A program made the translations under genes and the position numbers. Source: a virus. From it: a DNA stretch of 25,551 bases. Within the stretch, counting starts at the first letter, position 1. The number at the start of each line of letters is the position of its first letter. Positions 9,202-25,551 of this stretch are shown piece after piece. The DNA is taken from positions 1-25,551 of the IMG/VR virus record IMGVR_UViG_3300028712_000012; one strand, given 5' to 3'. The notes below the pieces were generated by a model that was not told the DNA's origin, did not search any database, and was given only the letters and a program-made list of their open reading frames with translations.

Positions 9202-11565
9202 TTAAGCGATGGCGATGTCGACGCGCTCGCCCACCAAGAAAAGGGCGTTCACGTTATCGGTGGTGCCCTCGGACCTGATCTTGTAGGCCGTGATGGCGAC
9301 GCCACCGAGCGCAGCGAGATTCCACGTGCAGCTTCTCACCAGAACCGTCGGGTCATCCGGAGAAACCTCGTCTTGGATCAGCGATGGCGTCCTCGCGTTG
9401 ACGTAGCCCGCGCCCACCAACAGCCGTGGCGTGAAGCTGTGGTATGGAGCGCCACGCCACGACTCCAGACGGAAGTCGCAGTACACCGTGGTCACCGGAC
9501 CGGGCGTGGTGCGGGCGGTAGAGATGTGGCGGAAGTCCGAGCGCGGACGCGTTGTCAGCGAACGCGAGTTGGACGCAACACCAAAGCCCGGCATTTCGTC
9601 CGTGGTGCCAAGCAGGGTGACCCTGAACGGCAACAGCGGTGGCAGAGCTACCAACGGGTTGCCTTCGTGATAGTAGCCGAGAGGCCGCCAGATTCCGTTG
9701 ACCTGCACCTCGAAATTGATCGCTGTTCCGGGCGGCTTGGTGCTGTCGAAATTGAGATCGATGGCAGAAATTCCGCCGTTCAATTCGAGCGACAGCAATT
9801 GCGTGGTGCACTGCGTGGTGCGGAATCTCGCGAAGTAAAGCCGGAACGACAGGTCCTTGGTGAGATCGCCGACCGACCATGCCCCATCGCTCGATTGAAA
9901 CATCGAGCCCTGCGCGAACTTGTTGTTGTGCACCAGCGCGACGAAGTGGTTGCCCGGCGTCTGCAGGACAATGGCGTAGCGCTGGCCTTTGGCAAGATAG
10001 GTTGGGATGAAGTCGAACTTGGTACCGTTCGGCGGCGCACGCAGCCGGTCCGCAGTGAGCGTCGAGCGCGCGATGGTCCGCTCGAAGTTGGGAGCGCCCG
10101 CCGCGTTGCATTCGCAGATTAGGCAGTGAACGTCGCCGGTTGTGGCGATACGCGTGAAGAAGATATCAACACCGGTCATCCAGCCGCCCTGAGAGTTCAG
10201 GTAGGTCTGTGAGATCACCGACCCGGACAGGCCTTCGATGGTGACCACCTGCCGCCAGTAATAGCTGTCGATGATCTCATCGACCCAGAACTGCACCAGC
10301 CGGAGAACCGTGTGGCTCGGGTTGTCCATCACATCGAGGATTTGGAAGGTCTCGGTGCCGCGCGTCAGGATGTTCCTGACCGGGTCGTAGATCAGATCAG
10401 TGTTCGGCGTATAGCCGCCGACGCCTGATTGTTCATGGGATTGCAGGAAGCCGGTGCCGTAGTCATGACCGGCTGGTGCAAACCACCACCAGCCATTGGA
10501 GCAGACCACGAATGGCGTGCCCCACCGAATTCGCGTGCGGGTCTTGGCGCAAAGCTCCCATGAGATCGTCTGGTACTGATATTGCGAGATCGACATCTCG
10601 GAGTCTTTACCGAGCACCTCGATGCGAACTACCTGATCGTAGACCGGCAGCACAAAGTTGGCTTGGTTGATTACTCCGGGGTCCATCGGGTTCAGCAATG
10701 CGAACTGCGCATCACGTTCGGCTGCGTTCGGGAAGCGAATGCCTTCCTCCACCTTGGCCAGATAATCCACGTGATACAGATCGGTCTCGTCAGGCGTCAG
10801 GAAATGATCGGCTCCCCAAGACGAATAGGTGTCAGGCAGCCCGCTCTTTTCCTTCACGCGTGCAACGTCGGCTGCGATCTGCAGCACGAACTTCATTCCA
10901 GCGGTGCCGTTCAACCGGGCGGCCAGCGCAGCCATGTCGGTCGCCAGCGTGTCGAGGCGTGACGCGGTTTGCGTGCGCCACGCATCCATCTCGTTCATGC
11001 GGGCATCGAGATCGGTAACGTTCGGCGCGCGGTTTTCGTCCACCATCTGGATCGAGACGATGCCGGTAGAGTCCAGCAATATCCATGCAACCGCCAGCGT
11101 GTTCGACGCCACGCTCGGGTGCTGCGGGTCCGGGCCTTCAGCGCCGATCACGGTCGAGACGTTGGCCCACCTGCGGTTCTCGGTCGAGACCACACGCGCC
11201 ACCGTGGCGCGGGTCACCGGGTCCGTGAGGAAGGTTCTCGGTTCGGTATCGGTCTCGATCTCTTGGCCCCACGCCACCACGCCGACATAGCGCCGCGTCA
11301 CCACCGGCAGCACGCCGAGCATGTCGAGTGACGATCCGCCCTCGCTGTCGTTATAGAACACCAGACCGTTGTGGTAGAGCCTGCCGTTGCCGACGGTGAC
11401 CACCGCAGGCGCGGTCTGCACCGTGGTGAAGCCGGTGTAGGCCATGCCGGGGATGAGAGTATCCGCCACGATGTGATCAAACGAGGCGCGTGGAAACAAA
11501 CCGAAGTTGTTGAAGTCCTCGACCGTGACCTTCTGCCAATCTTGGATATTAACTTTCCGTTCCAT
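9202..11565 (-). CDS. Large baseplate-associated tail protein (fibre or fibre-network component)
   Basis: A 787-aa protein directly after gpI. Residues 1-100 (VTVEDFNNFGLFPRASFDHI, GMAYTGFTTVQTAPAVVTVG, RLYHNGLVFYNDSEGG) have the look of the N-terminal anchor seen in large tail proteins of DUF4815 type: a beta domain describing value and uptake faces. Residues 185-240 are predicted coiled coil (LDARMNEMDAWRTQTASRLD...). Residues 320-787 are beta-rich, with many aromatic residues and no visible catalytic motif. The gpI stop TAG is part of this gene's SD (TAGGAG, 7 bases before ATG 11565), so the two are translated together. It could be a fibre or a wedge-to-fibre adaptor. The family assignment is tentative. 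Confidence 0.65.
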   Translation of the reverse strand: MERKVNIQDWQKVTVEDFNNFGLFPRASFDHIVADTLIPGMAYTGFTTVQTAPAVVTVGNGRLYHNGLVFYNDSEGGSSLDMLGVLPVVTRRYVGVVAWGQEIETDTEPRTFLTDPVTRATVARVVSTENRRWANVSTVIGAEGPDPQHPSVASNTLAVAWILLDSTGIVSIQMVDENRAPNVTDLDARMNEMDAWRTQTASRLDTLATDMAALAARLNGTAGMKFVLQIAADVARVKEKSGLPDTYSSWGADHFLTPDETDLYHVDYLAKVEEGIRFPNAAERDAQFALLNPMDPGVINQANFVLPVYDQVVRIEVLGKDSEMSISQYQYQTISWELCAKTRTRIRWGTPFVVCSNGWWWFAPAGHDYGTGFLQSHEQSGVGGYTPNTDLIYDPVRNILTRGTETFQILDVMDNPSHTVLRLVQFWVDEIIDSYYWRQVVTIEGLSGSVISQTYLNSQGGWMTGVDIFFTRIATTGDVHCLICECNAAGAPNFERTIARSTLTADRLRAPPNGTKFDFIPTYLAKGQRYAIVLQTPGNHFVALVHNNKFAQGSMFQSSDGAWSVGDLTKDLSFRLYFARFRTTQCTTQLLSLELNGGISAIDLNFDSTKPPGTAINFEVQVNGIWRPLGYYHEGNPLVALPPLLPFRVTLLGTTDEMPGFGVASNSRSLTTRPRSDFRHISTARTTPGPVTTVYCDFRLESWRGAPYHSFTPRLLVGAGYVNARTPSLIQDEVSPDDPTVLVRSCTWNLAALGGVAITAYKIRSEGTTDNVNALFLVGERVDIAIA

Positions 11566-11575
11566 GCTGCCTCTC

Positions 11576-13030
11576 CTAGAGCAAGTTCACGACTTGCTGG
11601 TCAATGGTGGTTTCGTTGTAAGCGCGTTCGCGTAGCTCGATCAGGCGCGTCGGGTCGTAGGCAACGCGCACACGATCTCTCAGCGCCTGTGAAGTGACGA
11701 CGGCTCGGCTAGCGCGGTCGAAGTCGGCCATGTCGACTGCGCTCGCGAAGTAATTGTCGTCGGTGGTGAAGCCTTCATCACCGAACCAACTCCACCAATC
11801 GTCATCGGCATGAAGGTGGATCATCAGGTCCGCCGTGTAGGCGGGCCATGAGACGTAATCGACGCCGACATAGGAGATGCCGCCAGTGATGGTCGCGACG
11901 ATGTCAGGGTCGTACAGGAAGATGCGATCAGCCAGCATGCGCGCGGCGTCGTATCCGGCGTCGGCGTAGTAGACGACGGGGACCGGCGGTACCGGATAAG
12001 GAACGGTGTTCGGCGGCGTTGGCGGCAGCACTATCGGGTGCTCCGGACGCGGGATGGTGTCTGGAAGCTCGTGATCAGGATGCGGCAGGTCACTCGGGTG
12101 CGTGATGTTGCGGCTGTCGCTCCAATCGCCGACGAAGAAGAACGAATTGCCCCAGCCGATGTCGCTATTGCGCTCATAGCGCACATCGATAGGCTCAAGC
12201 CCGGGCAGCACCATGTCGAGATGCAGTTGGCTCTGCTCGTGGCTATAGCTGCCGTCGACGCGCACCGTGATCAGCTTCGGCACGATGGCTTCAGCACAGA
12301 CGAACCTCTCATCGTTAACGAAGTCCTCGGTCATGATGGCGTGACCGGCCTGCCCCGGCAACGCGATCTGCTCGAAGTCCACCGAGGCGACGCCGTTGAT
12401 CTCTTTGGTGAAGGTGTAGATTTGCAGCGGGATGTCCTGCCCGGTCCGCAGCCGCAGATACGCCTTGCGACCGTGCAGCGCCTCGCCATCATCGAGCCCG
12501 ACGAAATCGTTGACGCCGCCCTTGTCGGAATACAGCACATCAACGCCGTCCCAACCGATCCCCTCCTCGAAGGTGATGCGGATCGACGGCATCATGTGAA
12601 TCCAGAAATCGTAGGCCGCCTTGTCCATCGAGGGCGAGGCGAAGAACGCCTGCGGCGGACGGATCGCCTGCACCACCTCGTAACCGACCGGCCCGACGAA
12701 ATCCCGCCCGCTGTAGTGGAGCGCCATTTCGATTCCGGCCTGCGTGCCGCGCAGCGATTTGTATTCGAACTGCCGCGCCACCCATTCGCGTTGCGTGCTC
12801 TCGCTCCAGCCCTCCTCCCACAACAGCACGCCCTGCGCGTAGCCGAGATAGGGCAGGTTGTTGTAGCTGATCTTGTAGGGGTCCCACTGGTCGATGATGA
12901 TCTCGGCATAGGTGCCGATCAGCCGCTCACCGTCGACGTCGGCCATCGCCTTTTCGAGACCTGACGCCGAACGATAGAGCAGTTTCGCACCGGGTGCTTT
13001 GATCAGCCCCTCTGTGACGATGTCGTTCAT
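11576..13030 (-). CDS. Baseplate protein gpI-like (P2 tail protein I) with long C-terminal extension
   Basis: A 484-aa protein with a P2 I-like N-terminal domain: LEKAMADVDGERL near residues 25-37, IIIDQWDPYKISYNNLPYLG near 44-63, LLWEEGWSESTQREWV near 69-84, RGTQAGIEMALHYSGR near 94-109. The usual family length is about 180-220 aa. Here residues 190-310 add a beta-rich region, 310-355 is a Pro/His-rich linker (PTPPNTVPYPVPPVPVVYY), and 356-484 is a further Asp/Trp-rich domain. In P2, I helps join the wedge to the fibre. The ATG at 13030 overlaps the J stop as ATGA. The frame is open 81 codons further upstream, but that stretch lies within J and has no coding look. Confidence 0.85.
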   Translation of the reverse strand: MNDIVTEGLIKAPGAKLLYRSASGLEKAMADVDGERLIGTYAEIIIDQWDPYKISYNNLPYLGYAQGVLLWEEGWSESTQREWVARQFEYKSLRGTQAGIEMALHYSGRDFVGPVGYEVVQAIRPPQAFFASPSMDKAAYDFWIHMMPSIRITFEEGIGWDGVDVLYSDKGGVNDFVGLDDGEALHGRKAYLRLRTGQDIPLQIYTFTKEINGVASVDFEQIALPGQAGHAIMTEDFVNDERFVCAEAIVPKLITVRVDGSYSHEQSQLHLDMVLPGLEPIDVRYERNSDIGWGNSFFFVGDWSDSRNITHPSDLPHPDHELPDTIPRPEHPIVLPPTPPNTVPYPVPPVPVVYYADAGYDAARMLADRIFLYDPDIVATITGGISYVGVDYVSWPAYTADLMIHLHADDDWWSWFGDEGFTTDDNYFASAVDMADFDRASRAVVTSQALRDRVRVAYDPTRLIELRERAYNETTIDQQVVNLL

Positions 13031-20766: not shown

Positions 20767-21384
20767 TTAGTTGGCGGCGCGACCGCCTGCGGTCTTCCAG
20801 CGGTTGGAGATGTCCTTGTCGTAGTCGGCATAGGCCTTGCCGCGTGCGTCGCCGCCGGGGTCGTTGCTGGCGATCACCTGCACCACATGGTTCAGGCCGT
20901 TGCCGCTGTAGTTGTTGTCGACGGTGGCAACCGACAGCGTGTTGAACGACGCATTGATCATGTCGTCATTCCAATCCTTGGCGACCTCACCGAGCTTGGT
21001 GAGCACCACCTGCTTGCGCATGTCGGCGTCGGTCTTGCCATCGACCACGAGCGCATCACCGATGATCGATTTGGCGCGCTGCACGGTGGCGACGCGTGCC
21101 GCCACCATCTGGTCGAGCTTCTGCGGCGTCATCTTCGCATCGGCCAGTTGGCTCTTCAGCGTGGTGATCTCCGCATCCTTGGTCTGCACTTCGGCTTTCG
21201 CATTGGCGGCGTCGGTCGTTGCTTTCGCAACGTCGGTCTGCGCAGCGGTCTGCGCGGCGGCGAGCACGGTCTGCGCCGTGGCTAGGTCCGCTGCGAGCTT
21301 TGCGATGTGACGCTCGACAATCTGCGCGTCACGATCTTCGAGCGTAACCTGAAGGCTATCTACGCTGATGGTTCTGGTGGCCAT
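20767..21384 (-). CDS. Putative nested scaffold protein from an internal in-frame start
   Basis: ATG 21384 (residue 192 of the protease/scaffold gene) is preceded by CCGGAGAGATACA: GGAG lies 7 bases before the ATG, as good as most real starts here. It falls exactly between the protease part and the coiled-coil part, giving a 205-aa scaffold (MATRTISVDSLQVTLEDRDA...). The same plan is used by lambda C/Nu3. It is an inference from spacing and domain boundary; no direct proof of initiation is visible. Confidence 0.5.
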   Translation of the reverse strand: MATRTISVDSLQVTLEDRDAQIVERHIAKLAADLATAQTVLAAAQTAAQTDVAKATTDAANAKAEVQTKDAEITTLKSQLADAKMTPQKLDQMVAARVATVQRAKSIIGDALVVDGKTDADMRKQVVLTKLGEVAKDWNDDMINASFNTLSVATVDNNYSGNGLNHVVQVIASNDPGGDARGKAYADYDKDISNRWKTAGGRAAN

Positions 21385-21957
21385 TGTATCTCTCCGGTTG
21401 TCACCCATACGCAAAAGAGGTCCACCGCGTGCGGTATGGGTGATCGCTACGTGGTTGGCACGGATGGAGGTCTGCTTGGCGTTGTAGGGTTCGCCGCTCG
21501 GCGTCACCCCGTCAGCCCACTCGATGATGGCGGAATATCCGACGGACAATTCCGCTCGACCGCCGTTCACTTCCTTGACAGCGGTGGCGTCCATCAGATG
21601 CAGCGGCACGCGGATGCAGTCGCCGTCGCGCATCACTTCATCGCCGACATGGCCGACCGCGTAATCTTTCCAGTTCTCTGCAGTGATCATCACATCGGGG
21701 TGCTCGACGGTGACCGGCTTGCCGACCAGCGTCTTGACCGCGTCGTGCGAGAACACTTCGGATTCCGGGCGATAGACCAGCACCTTCTCAAGGTCCGGCC
21801 TGCCCATCTCGATGCCGAGATATTCCTGAATGCCGGTGCGCGCGATGCGCGGCATGCAGACCATGTAGCCGTCGTTGAGCTTTTTCAGCGCGAACTTCTT
21901 GTCGGCCAGCATCGCTTTATCCATGACAAAGCGTTCCACGAAATCGGTGGTCTTCAT
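20767..21957 (-). CDS. DUF2213-type prohead protease with C-terminal scaffold domain
   Basis: A 396-aa protein in two parts. Residues 1-185 match the DUF2213 plan, which shares the prohead-protease layout: GKPVTVEHPDVM with candidate catalytic His86, AELSVGYSAI with candidate nucleophile Ser138, and RANHVAITHTARGG near 167-179. Residues 205-340 are coiled-coil and scaffold-like (LAADLATAQTVLAAAQTAA, DAEITTLKSQLADAKM), and the tail is hydrophilic. Such proteins cut scaffold and themselves during head maturation. The start at ATG 21957 has AGGTGA well placed. A second in-frame ATG (21384, residue 192) with its own SD lies just after the protease domain (separate entry). It precedes cement and capsid genes, as expected for this family. 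Confidence 0.85.
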   Translation of the reverse strand: MKTTDFVERFVMDKAMLADKKFALKKLNDGYMVCMPRIARTGIQEYLGIEMGRPDLEKVLVYRPESEVFSHDAVKTLVGKPVTVEHPDVMITAENWKDYAVGHVGDEVMRDGDCIRVPLHLMDATAVKEVNGGRAELSVGYSAIIEWADGVTPSGEPYNAKQTSIRANHVAITHTARGGPLLRMGDNRRDTMATRTISVDSLQVTLEDRDAQIVERHIAKLAADLATAQTVLAAAQTAAQTDVAKATTDAANAKAEVQTKDAEITTLKSQLADAKMTPQKLDQMVAARVATVQRAKSIIGDALVVDGKTDADMRKQVVLTKLGEVAKDWNDDMINASFNTLSVATVDNNYSGNGLNHVVQVIASNDPGGDARGKAYADYDKDISNRWKTAGGRAAN

Positions 21958-21973
21958 GATGTCACCTGTGTGA

Positions 21974-22267
21974 TTACTTCGGCGGGTTCTTCAGATACTG
22001 CTCAACGATGCGCCTGATCGACGCCTCGTTGCTTTCGATCTGCTGTTCGAGCACAGCGATCTTCAATTTCATCTCGTCCATGCGGCCTACCGTGTAGGCC
22101 GCGCCGCGCTCTTCCATGATCGAGACCCGGGTCTCCAGCTTGGTGAAGTAGGCCAGCATGCTGGCACCTCCAGCGCCGATAGCGATCAACTGCGCGATAA
22201 GGAAGTAGATCAGCGTGGAATTTTCCCGAAACCACGACGTTCGCACCCTACCGCTCGCGTCGATCAT
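21974..22267 (-). CDS. Membrane protein with one helix and coiled coil, possible i-spanin or holin-like
   Basis: A 97-aa protein. Residues 1-17 are basic. Residues 18-41 form one membrane helix (STLIYFLIAQLIAIGAGGAS...). Residues 43-92 form a coiled coil (TKLETRVSIMEERG, MDEMKLKIAVLEQQIESNEA). The basic N terminus suggests N-in, C-out. This topology fits an Rz-like inner-membrane spanin. DUF2730-like or XhlA-like phage proteins are alternatives. No overlapping Rz1-type lipoprotein frame or endolysin was recognised beside it. The ATG at 22267 overlaps the previous stop as ATGA; upstream in-frame sequence belongs to that gene. Function uncertain. Confidence 0.65.
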   Translation of the reverse strand: MIDASGRVRTSWFRENSTLIYFLIAQLIAIGAGGASMLAYFTKLETRVSIMEERGAAYTVGRMDEMKLKIAVLEQQIESNEASIRRIVEQYLKNPPK

Positions 22268-22707
22268 TGCTGCACGGGATCGTCCAGCGGGATATCTGGG
22301 TCCGGCGGCGGCAGCGTCGGCGGCTGTGCGGCCATCATCATCGGCGGCGGCTTGGTCGCATCCTCCACCCGCCACTTCTCGAAGAACGCGCCCATCGCCT
22401 GCAGCACCGTCGCAAAACTGATGGTGTTGCCGTCAACATCGACGGTCTCCTCCATCACCATCGGGATGCCACGGTTGATCGCGGTGCCGGGCATGATTCC
22501 GTAGGTGATCTTCTCGCCTTCCGTCGGTGTGGACGTGCCCATCATAGGTGTGACAGGCCGCAGGATTTCCGCGCCCTTGCTCGGGCTGTCGGGCTCCTGC
22601 AGCAACACCTCGCTGTAGCCGTACACCATACCGCTCGGCAAATGCGGCGAAGAGAATTCGAAACGCGCGATGCGGCTGGTTGCGTCAACGCTTAGGGTAA
22701 CGGTCAT
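22264..22707 (-). CDS. Unknown protein of the fibre-head junction
   Basis: A 147-aa frame; the ATG at 22707 has GAGG six bases upstream, within the previous gene's 3' end. Residues 1-110 are beta-rich, with hydrophobic alternation (TLSVDATSRIARFEFSS, GMVYGYSEVLLQEP, ETVDVDGNTISFATVLQAMG), and 111-147 form a Pro/Asp-rich end (PTLPPPDPDIPLDDP). There is no signal peptide. It could be a fibre-associated or minor structural protein; nothing identifies the function. Confidence 0.65.
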   Translation of the reverse strand: MTVTLSVDATSRIARFEFSSPHLPSGMVYGYSEVLLQEPDSPSKGAEILRPVTPMMGTSTPTEGEKITYGIMPGTAINRGIPMVMEETVDVDGNTISFATVLQAMGAFFEKWRVEDATKPPPMMMAAQPPTLPPPDPDIPLDDPVQQ

Positions 22708-22943: not shown

Positions 22944-23433
22944 CTCTCGCTTTCTCCAGTTGCTGGACGCGCGCCCGCAGGTCGACAATGACCTCGGCCA
23001 GATTGTTCATCACGAACGCCTCATCCTCGGACATCTTCCGGGGCGGCGGCGGATCGGTGATCTCGTTGGTCTCAGGGTCGATGTACCTACTGCGCAGCCG
23101 CGCAATGATCTCGTCCTCGTCGGTAGTGCCAAAGCCGATGATCTCGCGCACGATCTGGTTTGCGGGAAAGATCAGGGTCGCATCGATCACCGATGGTCCG
23201 ATTTTCCAGCGCTGTTCGCTCTCATGCCACATGAAGGCGATCTTGACGCTGTCCTCGCGGAAGTTCTCAGAGAACAGGCGCTGCCGGTTTTCCTTCGGTG
23301 GGTTGACGTAATCGTACCAGTCCACGCCATCGCTCTCACGCTTGGCAAACAGTGCCTGCGCAGGCGCGCCTTCGGGCCATGCATCATTCGATGGTTTGTA
23401 CGGAATCCACTTGCCGTGATCGATGATCTTCAT
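22933..23433 (-). CDS. Tail-fibre-associated protein, possible fibre assembly chaperone
   Basis: A 166-aa protein directly after three tandem fibre genes, starting by ATGA overlap at 23433. Residues 1-90 (GKWIPYKPSNDAWPEGAPAQ, ALFAKRESDGVDWYDYV, KIAFMWHESEQRWKIG) and 90-130 (SVIDATLIFPANQIVREIIG, RYIDPETNEITDP) resemble Tfa-type or baseplate-bound fibre helper proteins in rhizobial prophages. The last 30 residues form a coiled coil (NNLAEVIVDLRARVQQLEKA). Position is the main argument: Tfa-type chaperones follow the fibre genes they serve. Confidence 0.5.
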   Translation of the reverse strand: MKIIDHGKWIPYKPSNDAWPEGAPAQALFAKRESDGVDWYDYVNPPKENRQRLFSENFREDSVKIAFMWHESEQRWKIGPSVIDATLIFPANQIVREIIGFGTTDEDEIIARLRSRYIDPETNEITDPPPPRKMSEDEAFVMNNLAEVIVDLRARVQQLEKARDDK

Positions 23434-24446
23434 GCGTAGCCAATCGCGAACCAGCCGTTAGTGTAATATTGAAACTGTCGAAAGCGCCGTATCCAATCGC
23501 CAGCGGCCTGACTCCCGGTCTGTCCTGTAATGGTGCTGCCGCCATAGGGCTCTTGCATACCCTCACCGTAGGGAAAGTTGCGGTCAGTCACGTAAGCCAG
23601 CCGCGCATTGTTGTACGGCATCGCACCACCCCAATCGTTGGTGCCGTAGATGCGACCCTGCCCGGCGAACACCGCCGCGCCGTTGAAATTGTATGTCCCG
23701 CCATCCCACTGCAGATAGCGCGCCCCAGAATTGCCGAGATAGATCACGCCGTAGTTGCCGTTGTTGTGCACCCACATGTCGGCACCGGCCTGCGTCAAGG
23801 TGCCAACACTGCCGCCAGACAGCGGCACGTAGCTGCCGCCACCGGCTCGACCCTTCACGAATTCCGTCGTCGCGATCCTCGTTGAATTGTTGCCAGCGGC
23901 AGGCGTCGGCAGCGTCGGAGGTTCCCGAAACACCATCGTCTGATCATTCTGGATGTAGAACACCGGAGCCGGGTTGCCGCTGTAGCCGGTGCGCACCCAG
24001 AAATGTCCGCTGCTGTCAGTGCCGATGCCGCACCAGCTATCCGGTGACCCTTCGACAGTGTGATCGTAGAGCTTGATGTTGGCGTCGGCTTTCGTCACAG
24101 CGCCAGCCGCTGCCGTGCCGCCCGCCGTGCCGAACTTGTGGCCCTTCGCCGTCGAGATCAGCCTGCCATTGACCGTGACATTGCCGCTGACATTGATCAT
24201 CGCCGCCGTCATCACACCAGTGAACGTCGCGTTGTTGATCGGTGCGCGAGATGTGTCGCTCGGATGCACATGATCACTGCGCGAATATTTGGTGCTGCTT
24301 CCGGCGCTGGCAGCGCCATCCATCACCGGGCTTGCGTCGCTGCCACCCGCGAAGGTCAGGACAGGTGAGGTCGACCACTTCTCGCCGTCCCAGATATAGG
24401 CCTGATGCTTTTGACCGACGGTTGGCGTGTTCGGAAAATTAAGCAT
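23430..24446 (-). CDS. Tail fibre-like protein, paralog B of a tandem array
   Basis: A 338-aa protein starting MLNFPNTPTVGQ at ATG 24446, which overlaps the previous stop by 8 bases (ATGCTTAA). Shared marks with its upstream neighbour: AYIWDGEKWSTS near residues 16-27, DHVHPSDTSRAPINNATFTG near 58-77, DSWCGIGTDSSGHFWVRTGY near 135-155, NNSTRIATTEFVKG near 187-200, EPYGGS near 304-309, and an ending with FRQFQYYTNGWFAIGYA. The HVHPSDTSRA and ATTEFVKG elements are widespread in phage tail fibres. It probably forms a trimer whose C-terminal domain meets the host surface. Upstream in-frame starts inside paralog A are rejected because of the conserved MLNF start. Confidence 0.8.
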   Translation of the reverse strand: MLNFPNTPTVGQKHQAYIWDGEKWSTSPVLTFAGGSDASPVMDGAASAGSSTKYSRSDHVHPSDTSRAPINNATFTGVMTAAMINVSGNVTVNGRLISTAKGHKFGTAGGTAAAGAVTKADANIKLYDHTVEGSPDSWCGIGTDSSGHFWVRTGYSGNPAPVFYIQNDQTMVFREPPTLPTPAAGNNSTRIATTEFVKGRAGGGSYVPLSGGSVGTLTQAGADMWVHNNGNYGVIYLGNSGARYLQWDGGTYNFNGAAVFAGQGRIYGTNDWGGAMPYNNARLAYVTDRNFPYGEGMQEPYGGSTITGQTGSQAAGDWIRRFRQFQYYTNGWFAIGYA

Positions 24447-25455
24447 AGCCCACCGCGTACCATCCGCCGTTGCCAAGCTGAATCTGGAATTGCCGGTAGC
24501 GCACATAACCGTAGGTGTAGCCAATGTGATAGTTTCCGGACACGCCGGTTGAGCACGAACCGCCATACGGCTCGACCAGCCCCGTGTTGTTTATGTCGTG
24601 CTGGTAGTCGGCAACATACGCCAGACGAATGTTGATGATCGGTTGCGCGTAATCGTTGGGACCCCACAGCCTGCCGTTGGCGGAAGCGGCATGCGCGCCC
24701 GGCAGATGATAGCCGCTGCCGTTGTAGTAGAGGTAGCGATCACCCGTGTTGTTGAGAAACACAACACCGGTTCTGTCGCCGCGATGTGTCCGAAAGTCTG
24801 CGTTGGCAATGTAGAGCATGCCCGTCATCGTATTGGCACCAGACAGCGTCACGTACGGCCCGGTGGCCGGGTTGGCCATAACGTATGCCGTCGTCGCTGC
24901 CTTGGTCGAATTGTCGGCTGTAGCAGGTGTCGGCGCTGTCGGCGTCTTCAACAGTGTGGCGTTGCGGCCCTGATCGATAAGCAGCGCTGGCCCCGGAGTC
25001 CCCGACAAACCCGTCCGTATCCAGAACGCACCGTTTAGATCGGTGCCCATGCCGCACCAGTTGTCGCCGCCGACATCGTACAGGATGATGTTGGCTTCGC
25101 TCTTCAGTGGCGGCGAGACGTTGCCGGACGGGATGCCGAGATAGTGGCTCTTGGCGCGGCTGGTGAAGGTGCCGCTGATGTTGATGTTGCCGGTGATGTT
25201 GGCGGCTTCGGCTGTCGTGGTCCCGGTCAGCGCAGCATTGTTCGGCAGTGCGCGCGAGGTGTCGCTCGGATGAACGTGATCGGCGCGGGCGTAGCTGTAC
25301 GAGAGACCCGGCAGCAACACGCCGTTCATCAGCGGGTTGGTGTCGCTCGCCGGATCGCCAGCTAACACTGTGCCGCTCCTCGACCATTTCTCTCCATCCC
25401 ACACGTAGAAGGAGTAGACCTGACCATTGCTCGGCGTATCGGGAAAATTCAGCAT
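24439..25455 (-). CDS. Tail fibre-like protein, paralog A of a tandem array
   Basis: A 338-aa protein starting MLNFPDTPSNGQVYSFYVWD at ATG 25455, overlapping the previous stop by one base (TGATG). It has exactly the same length as paralog B. Shared marks: VWDGEKWSRSG, DHVHPSDTSRALPNNAALTG near 59-78, DNWCGMGTDLNGAFWIRTGL, DNSTKAATTAYVMANP, EPYGGSCSTG, and RYRQFQIQLGNGGWYAVGYA at the end. The middle (residues 205-290) differs most from B. It is probably a tail fibre or fibre segment. The start was chosen by the conserved MLNF; in-frame starts upstream lie within the preceding gene. Confidence 0.8.
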   Translation of the reverse strand: MLNFPDTPSNGQVYSFYVWDGEKWSRSGTVLAGDPASDTNPLMNGVLLPGLSYSYARADHVHPSDTSRALPNNAALTGTTTAEAANITGNINISGTFTSRAKSHYLGIPSGNVSPPLKSEANIILYDVGGDNWCGMGTDLNGAFWIRTGLSGTPGPALLIDQGRNATLLKTPTAPTPATADNSTKAATTAYVMANPATGPYVTLSGANTMTGMLYIANADFRTHRGDRTGVVFLNNTGDRYLYYNGSGYHLPGAHAASANGRLWGPNDYAQPIINIRLAYVADYQHDINNTGLVEPYGGSCSTGVSGNYHIGYTYGYVRYRQFQIQLGNGGWYAVGYA

Positions 25456-25551
25456 CAGACATATCCCGCCGTGTACCAAGTGCCTTCGACATAGATTTGA
25501 TTGTAGCGATATCGGTTGGTGGTGCCCTTGTAATCTACCGTGACGCCAAGA
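25455..25551 (-). CDS. Tail fibre-like protein, paralog C (only 3' end in window)
   Basis: The minus strand from the window edge reads LGVTVDYKGTTNRYRYNQIY then VEGTWYTAGYV and stop. The ending matches the other two array members (...GGWYAVGYA; ...NGWFAIGYA) and sits at the same relative place, with its TGA overlapping the next ATG. Only 31 residues are visible, so length and N-terminal identity are unknown. Confidence 0.65.
   Translation of the reverse strand, partial: LGVTVDYKGTTNRYRYNQIYVEGTWYTAGYV

Follow-up and report, generated by a model that had tools for sequence, protein, structure and literature searches.

We find that a soil phage carries three paralogous fibre-like genes, C, B, and A, as an old, ordered tandem array directly before a single gene for a tail-fibre chaperone of the phage Mu Tfa (gpU) type, and that this set lies in the head cluster, ahead of the prohead protease. 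The DNA analysed is a virus record of 25,551 bases (hereafter the window, i.e. the whole stretch), whose structural genes are on the minus strand. In our preferred reading, to which we assign a probability of roughly 70%, the three proteins are specialised, co-translated adhesin fibres with a common anchor motif and chaperone, placed in a host-recognition block. As such, they would be present in virions, bind receptors, form trimers, and divide the labour among them.

The genes in the window run C (partial), B, A, a 166-aa gene, three small genes, and the protease, followed by a cement protein (PF22758), the major capsid protein, and later tail genes that include sheath, tube, and tape measure (Table 1). 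The original prediction described A and B as paralogues of equal length, and both points hold: they align end to end with 157 of 346 positions identical (45%; BLASTP, E 1e-83), and the alignment score of 726 is far above the maximum of 91 reached in 500 shuffles of B. The motifs quoted as shared by the two are also present, except that RYRQFQ in B reads RFRQFQ in A. Direct overlaps at the junctions were likewise seen correctly, and measure 8 nt for B/A (ATGCTTAA) and 1 nt for C/B (TGATG); a further overlap joins A to the 166-aa gene. The overlapping stops and starts may keep the amounts of C, B, and A matched.

Table 1. Positions of the array, its chaperone gene, and the genes used for context and comparison (in the window unless another record is named)
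Feature	Location	Strand	Remarks
Fibre paralogue C, 3' end	25455..25551	-	42-43% identical to A and B
Fibre paralogue C complete, 346 aa	L005 7949-8989		42-43% identical to A and B
Fibre paralogue B, 338 aa	24439..25455	-	BLASTP vs A; orthologue group
Fibre paralogue A, 338 aa	23430..24446	-	BLASTP vs B; orthologue group; weak PHROG match
N-terminal anchor-like motif of A, residues 1-26	24369..24446	-	Common to B, C, and other fibre genes of the block; putative anchor
C-terminal tip of A, ~residues 276-338	23433..23621	-	
C-terminal tip of B, last 68 residues	24442..24645	-	
Mu-Tfa-like tail-fibre chaperone, 166 aa	22933..23433	-	4-nt overlap with A (ATGA)
Head maturation (prohead) protease, DUF2213	20767..21957	-	Context gene
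Major capsid protein, PF09950	19117..20073	-	Context gene; marker for finding relatives
Tail-block fibre, 648 aa	6729..8675	-	First two thirds conserved, end swapped; comparison gene

A longer record of 79,976 bases matches the window at 99.98-100% along its full length. In this record and in another of 59,529 bases, C is a complete paralogue, which answers the concern that the fragment at the edge of the window might be an unrelated gene, and an A/B profile finds exactly three matches in each, in agreement with the predicted minimum of three copies. The order C-B-A is taken from these longer, near-identical contigs, in which the gene preceding C encodes a different protein with collagen repeats. 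Four array records end inside the array (the window, G007, G008, and L065). A chimeric assembly is rejected because the same arrangement is found in separate contigs. Scanning for promoters and terminators gave about the same yield as shuffled sequence.

The 166-aa gene, of which the original prediction made no mention, encodes a Mu-Tfa-like (gpU-like) tail-fibre chaperone. Specifically, a profile built from 11 relatives matches the Mu tail fiber assembly protein U (5yvq_B, E 1.2e-4), and phrog_136 (tail fiber assembly protein) matches 9 of these 11. Taken by itself the window's chaperone matches no PHROG or Pfam family, none of the 11 relatives matches a tail-fibre Pfam family, and a search of 50,697 phage records gives nothing at E 0.01. 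The structure model of the chaperone (pLDDT 89.8) retrieves 5yvq_B first in Foldseek (E 9e-3, probability 1.00), and VIA-align superposes the two over 100 residues with Z 9.9 and an rmsd of 3.3, the next match having Z 2.5; as modelled, the protein has the N-terminal fold of Mu Tfa. Among viral models, the best nine matches comprise 6 named tail fiber assembly protein, 2 named putative tail fibers protein, and 1 nameless entry, with three matches passing E 1e-3. Helices are predicted at residues 135-142 and 144-164, a part that may correspond to the C-terminal helical trimer of Tfa. At one related locus (L082 2472-3385), two different chaperone copies stand in tandem after a single fibre gene.

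The chaperone is paired with the array tip. We counted this pairing over 52 loci found through the major capsid protein: the chaperone is present in 14/14 loci with an array tip upstream of the protease and in 0/18 loci that have no tip and at least 4.5 kb visible upstream, counts in which the loci are not independent, several coming from the same phage. Left out of the count were 20 of the 52, all without a tip, that show <4.5 kb upstream or no protease start (including L071). In relatives too, the chaperone gene directly follows a tip-bearing gene. The pairing recurs in the tail block of G008, where the orthologue of the window's tail-block fibre ends in the array tip and is followed by its own copy of the chaperone. 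In G011, the match of this orthologue is confined to the segment preceding the tip, and here too a chaperone follows. There are exceptions, namely the tail-block fibre of G007, which has a weak tip match and no adjoining chaperone, and three loci with a chaperone and without the array tip (L105, L109, and L112). A comparable module is described for Alteromonas phage A5/V22, where a fibre and its cognate chaperone travel together between unrelated phages (PMC10579305, as excerpted), much as the array tip and chaperone occur here at two loci. This likeness is one of description, and the Alteromonas module, in the same excerpts, differs in having one fibre gene and a chaperone that resembles intramolecular chaperone domains. 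Judging from the fold, the tip pairing, and the Mu and Pam3 systems, the single chaperone would fold and trimerise the tips of all three fibres.

The fibre proteins themselves are recognised only faintly by family and structure searches. Their common plan would begin with an anchor-like motif at the N terminus (MLNFPxxPxxGQ...WDGxKW), continue in a body that includes a tail-fibre linker motif, and end in a C-terminal tip. Residues 170-224 of A give a weak match to a tail-fibre family (phrog_4209, 6.9e-6), and this family matches 8 of 13 copies, weakly, partially, and mainly over the linker. Pfam finds no family in A, B, or C, a gp10-like domain included, and the tip profile has no match among PDB sequences. 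Against the 50,697 phage records, tblastn with B gives nothing at E 1e-3; A at E 1 finds 33 records, none covering 80% of it, and the matches are mostly short motifs, e.g. a linker also present in E. coli tail fibres. The monomer structure model of A (pLDDT 43.5) is of too low a quality to search by fold. A comparison of the fibre profile with plant mannose-binding lectins gives 2.9e-4 for the whole chain and 0.87 for the best single stretch, and is a lead only. A lectin-like motif, xDANIxLYD, as in these plant lectins, is found at window 23982-24131 (about residues 106-155 of A).

Thirteen copies from five phages, one of them lacking its first residues at a contig end, were placed in a maximum-likelihood tree. 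The copies group by position rather than by phage, with support of 99.6/100 for the B group, 99.3/100 for the C group, and 99.2/100 for the split of A from B and C, and the 8-nt B/A overlap is kept in 5/5 phages. A recent duplication is rejected on the same grouping. All three copies are older than the divergence of these phages, and their order has been preserved; each therefore probably performs a task of its own within a fixed adhesin device. Among the five phages, orthologues of A are on average 59% identical and those of B 57% (10 pairs in either case), with 52% for C over 3 pairs. The protease and the chaperone both average 61%, and the capsid protein 84%. Within the closest pair, dN/dS is 0.125 for A, 0.199 for B, and 0.253 for the end of C, against 0.132 for the chaperone, 0.139 for the protease, and 0.055 for the capsid protein; by region, dN/dS peaks at 0.39 in B residues 31-75, and it is 0.27 in the B tip.

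These data bear on the earlier suggestion that A, B, and C are alternative receptor-binding fibres, one host surface per copy, that diversify to widen host range in the manner of tandem tailspikes. A tandem of genes with a common N-terminal motif is what this reading would expect, and it gains from the closest pair, in which the tips of B and C (73% and, for the end of C, 72%) vary more than the rest (85% for whole B). However, all three tips are homologous across the five phages and all groups, full-length conservation proceeds at about the pace of the protease and chaperone, the dN/dS range of 0.125-0.253 indicates purifying selection, and no full-length copy switches group; nor is any exchange between full-length copies of the five phages seen in the tree. 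We therefore regard diversifying alternatives as distinctly improbable, and A, B, and C are not hypervariable spares. The companion expectation, that the middle regions differ most, does not agree with the data either: A-B identity by thirds is 49, 43, and 43%, and in the closest pair identity is lowest in the C-terminal tip (83% in A, tied there with residues 1-30). The sequence observation behind the original prediction is sound, and its interpretation is partly wrong. The branched tailspike complex of Ackermannviridae, in which up to four tailspikes are joined by shared N-terminal parts (PMC11414711, as excerpted), is alike in having several receptor-binding proteins per phage with shared N-terminal parts, putatively so for the array. 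By contrast, the excerpted text gives these tailspikes variable C-terminal parts and differing receptors, unlike the homologous tips of the array, and their gp10-like XD and TD domains have no Pfam match in A, B, or C.

Given its age and its constant gene order among related phages, the array appears to be a conserved, fixed part of the host-attachment kit. The tail-block fibre appears to behave in the opposite way, the swapped element being its end. In alignment columns 1-400, identity of the window's protein is 56-80% with its counterparts in G007 and G008 and 49-77% with that in G011, whereas in the last third identity with G007, G008, and G011 falls to 15-32%. This separate fibre looks like a swappable host-range determinant.

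Copy number bears on a further reading, in which C, B, and A would assemble into a single hetero-oligomeric fibre (e.g. an A:B:C heterotrimer), with the chains made in equal amounts and served by one chaperone. It is favored by the finding that complete tip-bearing arrays have three genes each (G002, L066, L074, and L094) and other phages one (clearly so in L045, L046, and L072, and probably in L078 and L082, where only ~0.3 and ~1.3 kb are visible before the gene), with no complete two-gene array seen among the tip-bearing loci; in G008 the contig ends within C, and in G007 within B. That gene order and overlaps are kept points the same way. Nevertheless, chain lengths are unmatched within a phage (347, 330, and 356 in L066), and in the solved Mu-type relative Pam3 the tail fibre gp24, whose chaperone is gp25, is a trimer of a single protein (PMC9608196, as excerpted). 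The array of L094 can be argued both ways. It has three genes of 345, 345, and 346 aa, then the chaperone, then a fourth tip-bearing gene, and the 8-nt overlap recurs where its second gene meets its third. Its bodies are 50-59% alike within the phage and only 16-25% like the bodies of C, B, and A, and its first tip groups with the C tips (SH-aLRT 76.8, bootstrap 94). The second and third tips, however, are not assignable to B or A: against two phages the three tips pair best as C-B-A, and against two others as C-A-B. Such a pattern would be expected from a hetero-oligomer with matched bodies, and equally from homogenisation or independent triplication. Overall, we consider a hetero-oligomer unlikely. 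Its strictest form, an obligate heterotrimer with position-specific tips on matched bodies, equal amounts through overlapping translation, one Tfa-type chaperone, and possibly a mounting on the head, is unlikelier still.

C, B, A, and the chaperone gene close a fibre-like block of ~12 kb between the portal and prohead-protease genes, counted from the gene for a 663-aa protein through the chaperone gene (L023 3114-15527). The gene before C encodes a 599-aa collagen-repeat protein (PF01391, with many tail-fibre PHROGs), and upstream of it lie genes for two proteins, of 1731 and 663 aa, each with a match to phrog_5939 (tail protein). The region would be the end of a host-recognition block, and the shared N-terminal motif may anchor all three fibres at one virion site, perhaps the collagen-repeat protein.

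The position ahead of the prohead protease is confirmed, but it is not unusual in the sense first proposed. A fibre-like block lies between portal and protease in 9/9 relatives for which the whole interval or part of it was inspected, G016 and G017 being taken as a single phage, and it does so in the window's own phage as well. Each of the nine has a relative of the collagen-repeat protein, reduced to ~116 residues in G022 and G023, and the other large fibre-like genes of the block vary from phage to phage. Where terminase and protease lie on one unbroken contig, the interval between them is 16.3 kb in G020, 17.4 kb in G029, 18.6 kb in G011, 22.2 kb in G022, and 24.4 kb in G019. In G016 and G023 the two genes lie towards opposite contig ends, and the G016 length was not used because it spans ends that may not adjoin. 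By contrast, the nine annotated isolates that carry a related protease show an interval of 1.4-6.7 kb; in a further isolate of this kind, S72, no terminase is annotated. Among the isolates, an esterase family (phrog_8480) occupies this site in RHEph06 and RHph_TM3_3_3, and in RHph_N17 it is taken by a large protein whose matches are to unknown families only. The array position is thus ordinary for this phage group and unusual only in the wider comparison with isolates.

The same position raises the possibility that the products are capsid or neck fibres rather than tail fibres, with genes in the head cluster because the fibres are mounted on the head. The portal-protease position in the window's phage and nine relatives fits this, as does a tail block with a fibre of its own, and Agrobacterium phage 7-7-1, which has capsid fibres as well as tail fibres, demonstrates that the two kinds can coexist in phages with contractile tails (PMC12796354, as excerpted). 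The likeness to 7-7-1 lies in adhesin fibres beyond the tail fibres; the major capsid protein is of 469 aa in 7-7-1 and of 318 aa in the window's phage, and the 7-7-1 capsid-fibre genes are given as unknown in these excerpts. Gene position, however, is the sole support for a head mounting, Tfa-type chaperones are known from tail fibres (PMC9608196, as excerpted), and the tail-block fibre of G008 ends in the same tip, with a weak match in that of G007. We find capsid or neck fibres somewhat unlikely, and this alternative is compatible with the preferred reading in all but the site of attachment.

Phage fibres are usually pictured as one variable gene with its chaperone. Here, three paralogues form a fixed set with a rate of evolution close to that of the head protease, and it is the tail-block fibre that swaps its end. 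Conserved adhesin machinery would thereby be separated from the host-range switch, and a heteromeric fibre becomes directly testable. A fibre gene followed by a chaperone of this fold is known from Mu (with gpU/Tfa, 5yvq) and from Pam3 (gp24 with gp25), the latter sharing also a related protease and cement protein. What differs here is that three conserved paralogues precede one chaperone in the head cluster, whereas Mu and Pam3, in the excerpted sources, have one fibre gene per chaperone at the tail-fibre position; the demonstrated likeness is that of the chaperone and the gene order. The literature searched, whose coverage was partial, describes no such array, and we make no claim of absence. 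In these soil phages, the portal-protease fibre block becomes recognisable, and the chaperone is a marker of tip-bearing fibres.

The block and its surroundings hold several other features. A second kind of tandem triplet occurs in the same block of relatives (L189 9360-11016; L176, reverse complement, 10797-12471; L187 4249-5870), with consecutive genes of ~170-197 aa, most starting MGxDIGG or similar, and one member matching phrog_15750 (unknown function). At the block start in the window's phage (L023 751-1578 and 1582-2394), adjoining genes encode 275- and 270-aa proteins that are 41% identical and have no PHROG or Pfam match. Just before the protease, a 133-aa frame (window 21974-22375) has a C-terminal hydrophobic stretch, a coiled-coil-like end, and a sub-threshold XhlA match (E 0.026), and similar frames are found at this place in relatives. 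The sole relative from the bacterial genome scan is a contig of a Myxococcaceae metagenome-assembled genome (L167), with a related capsid protein that is 55% identical.
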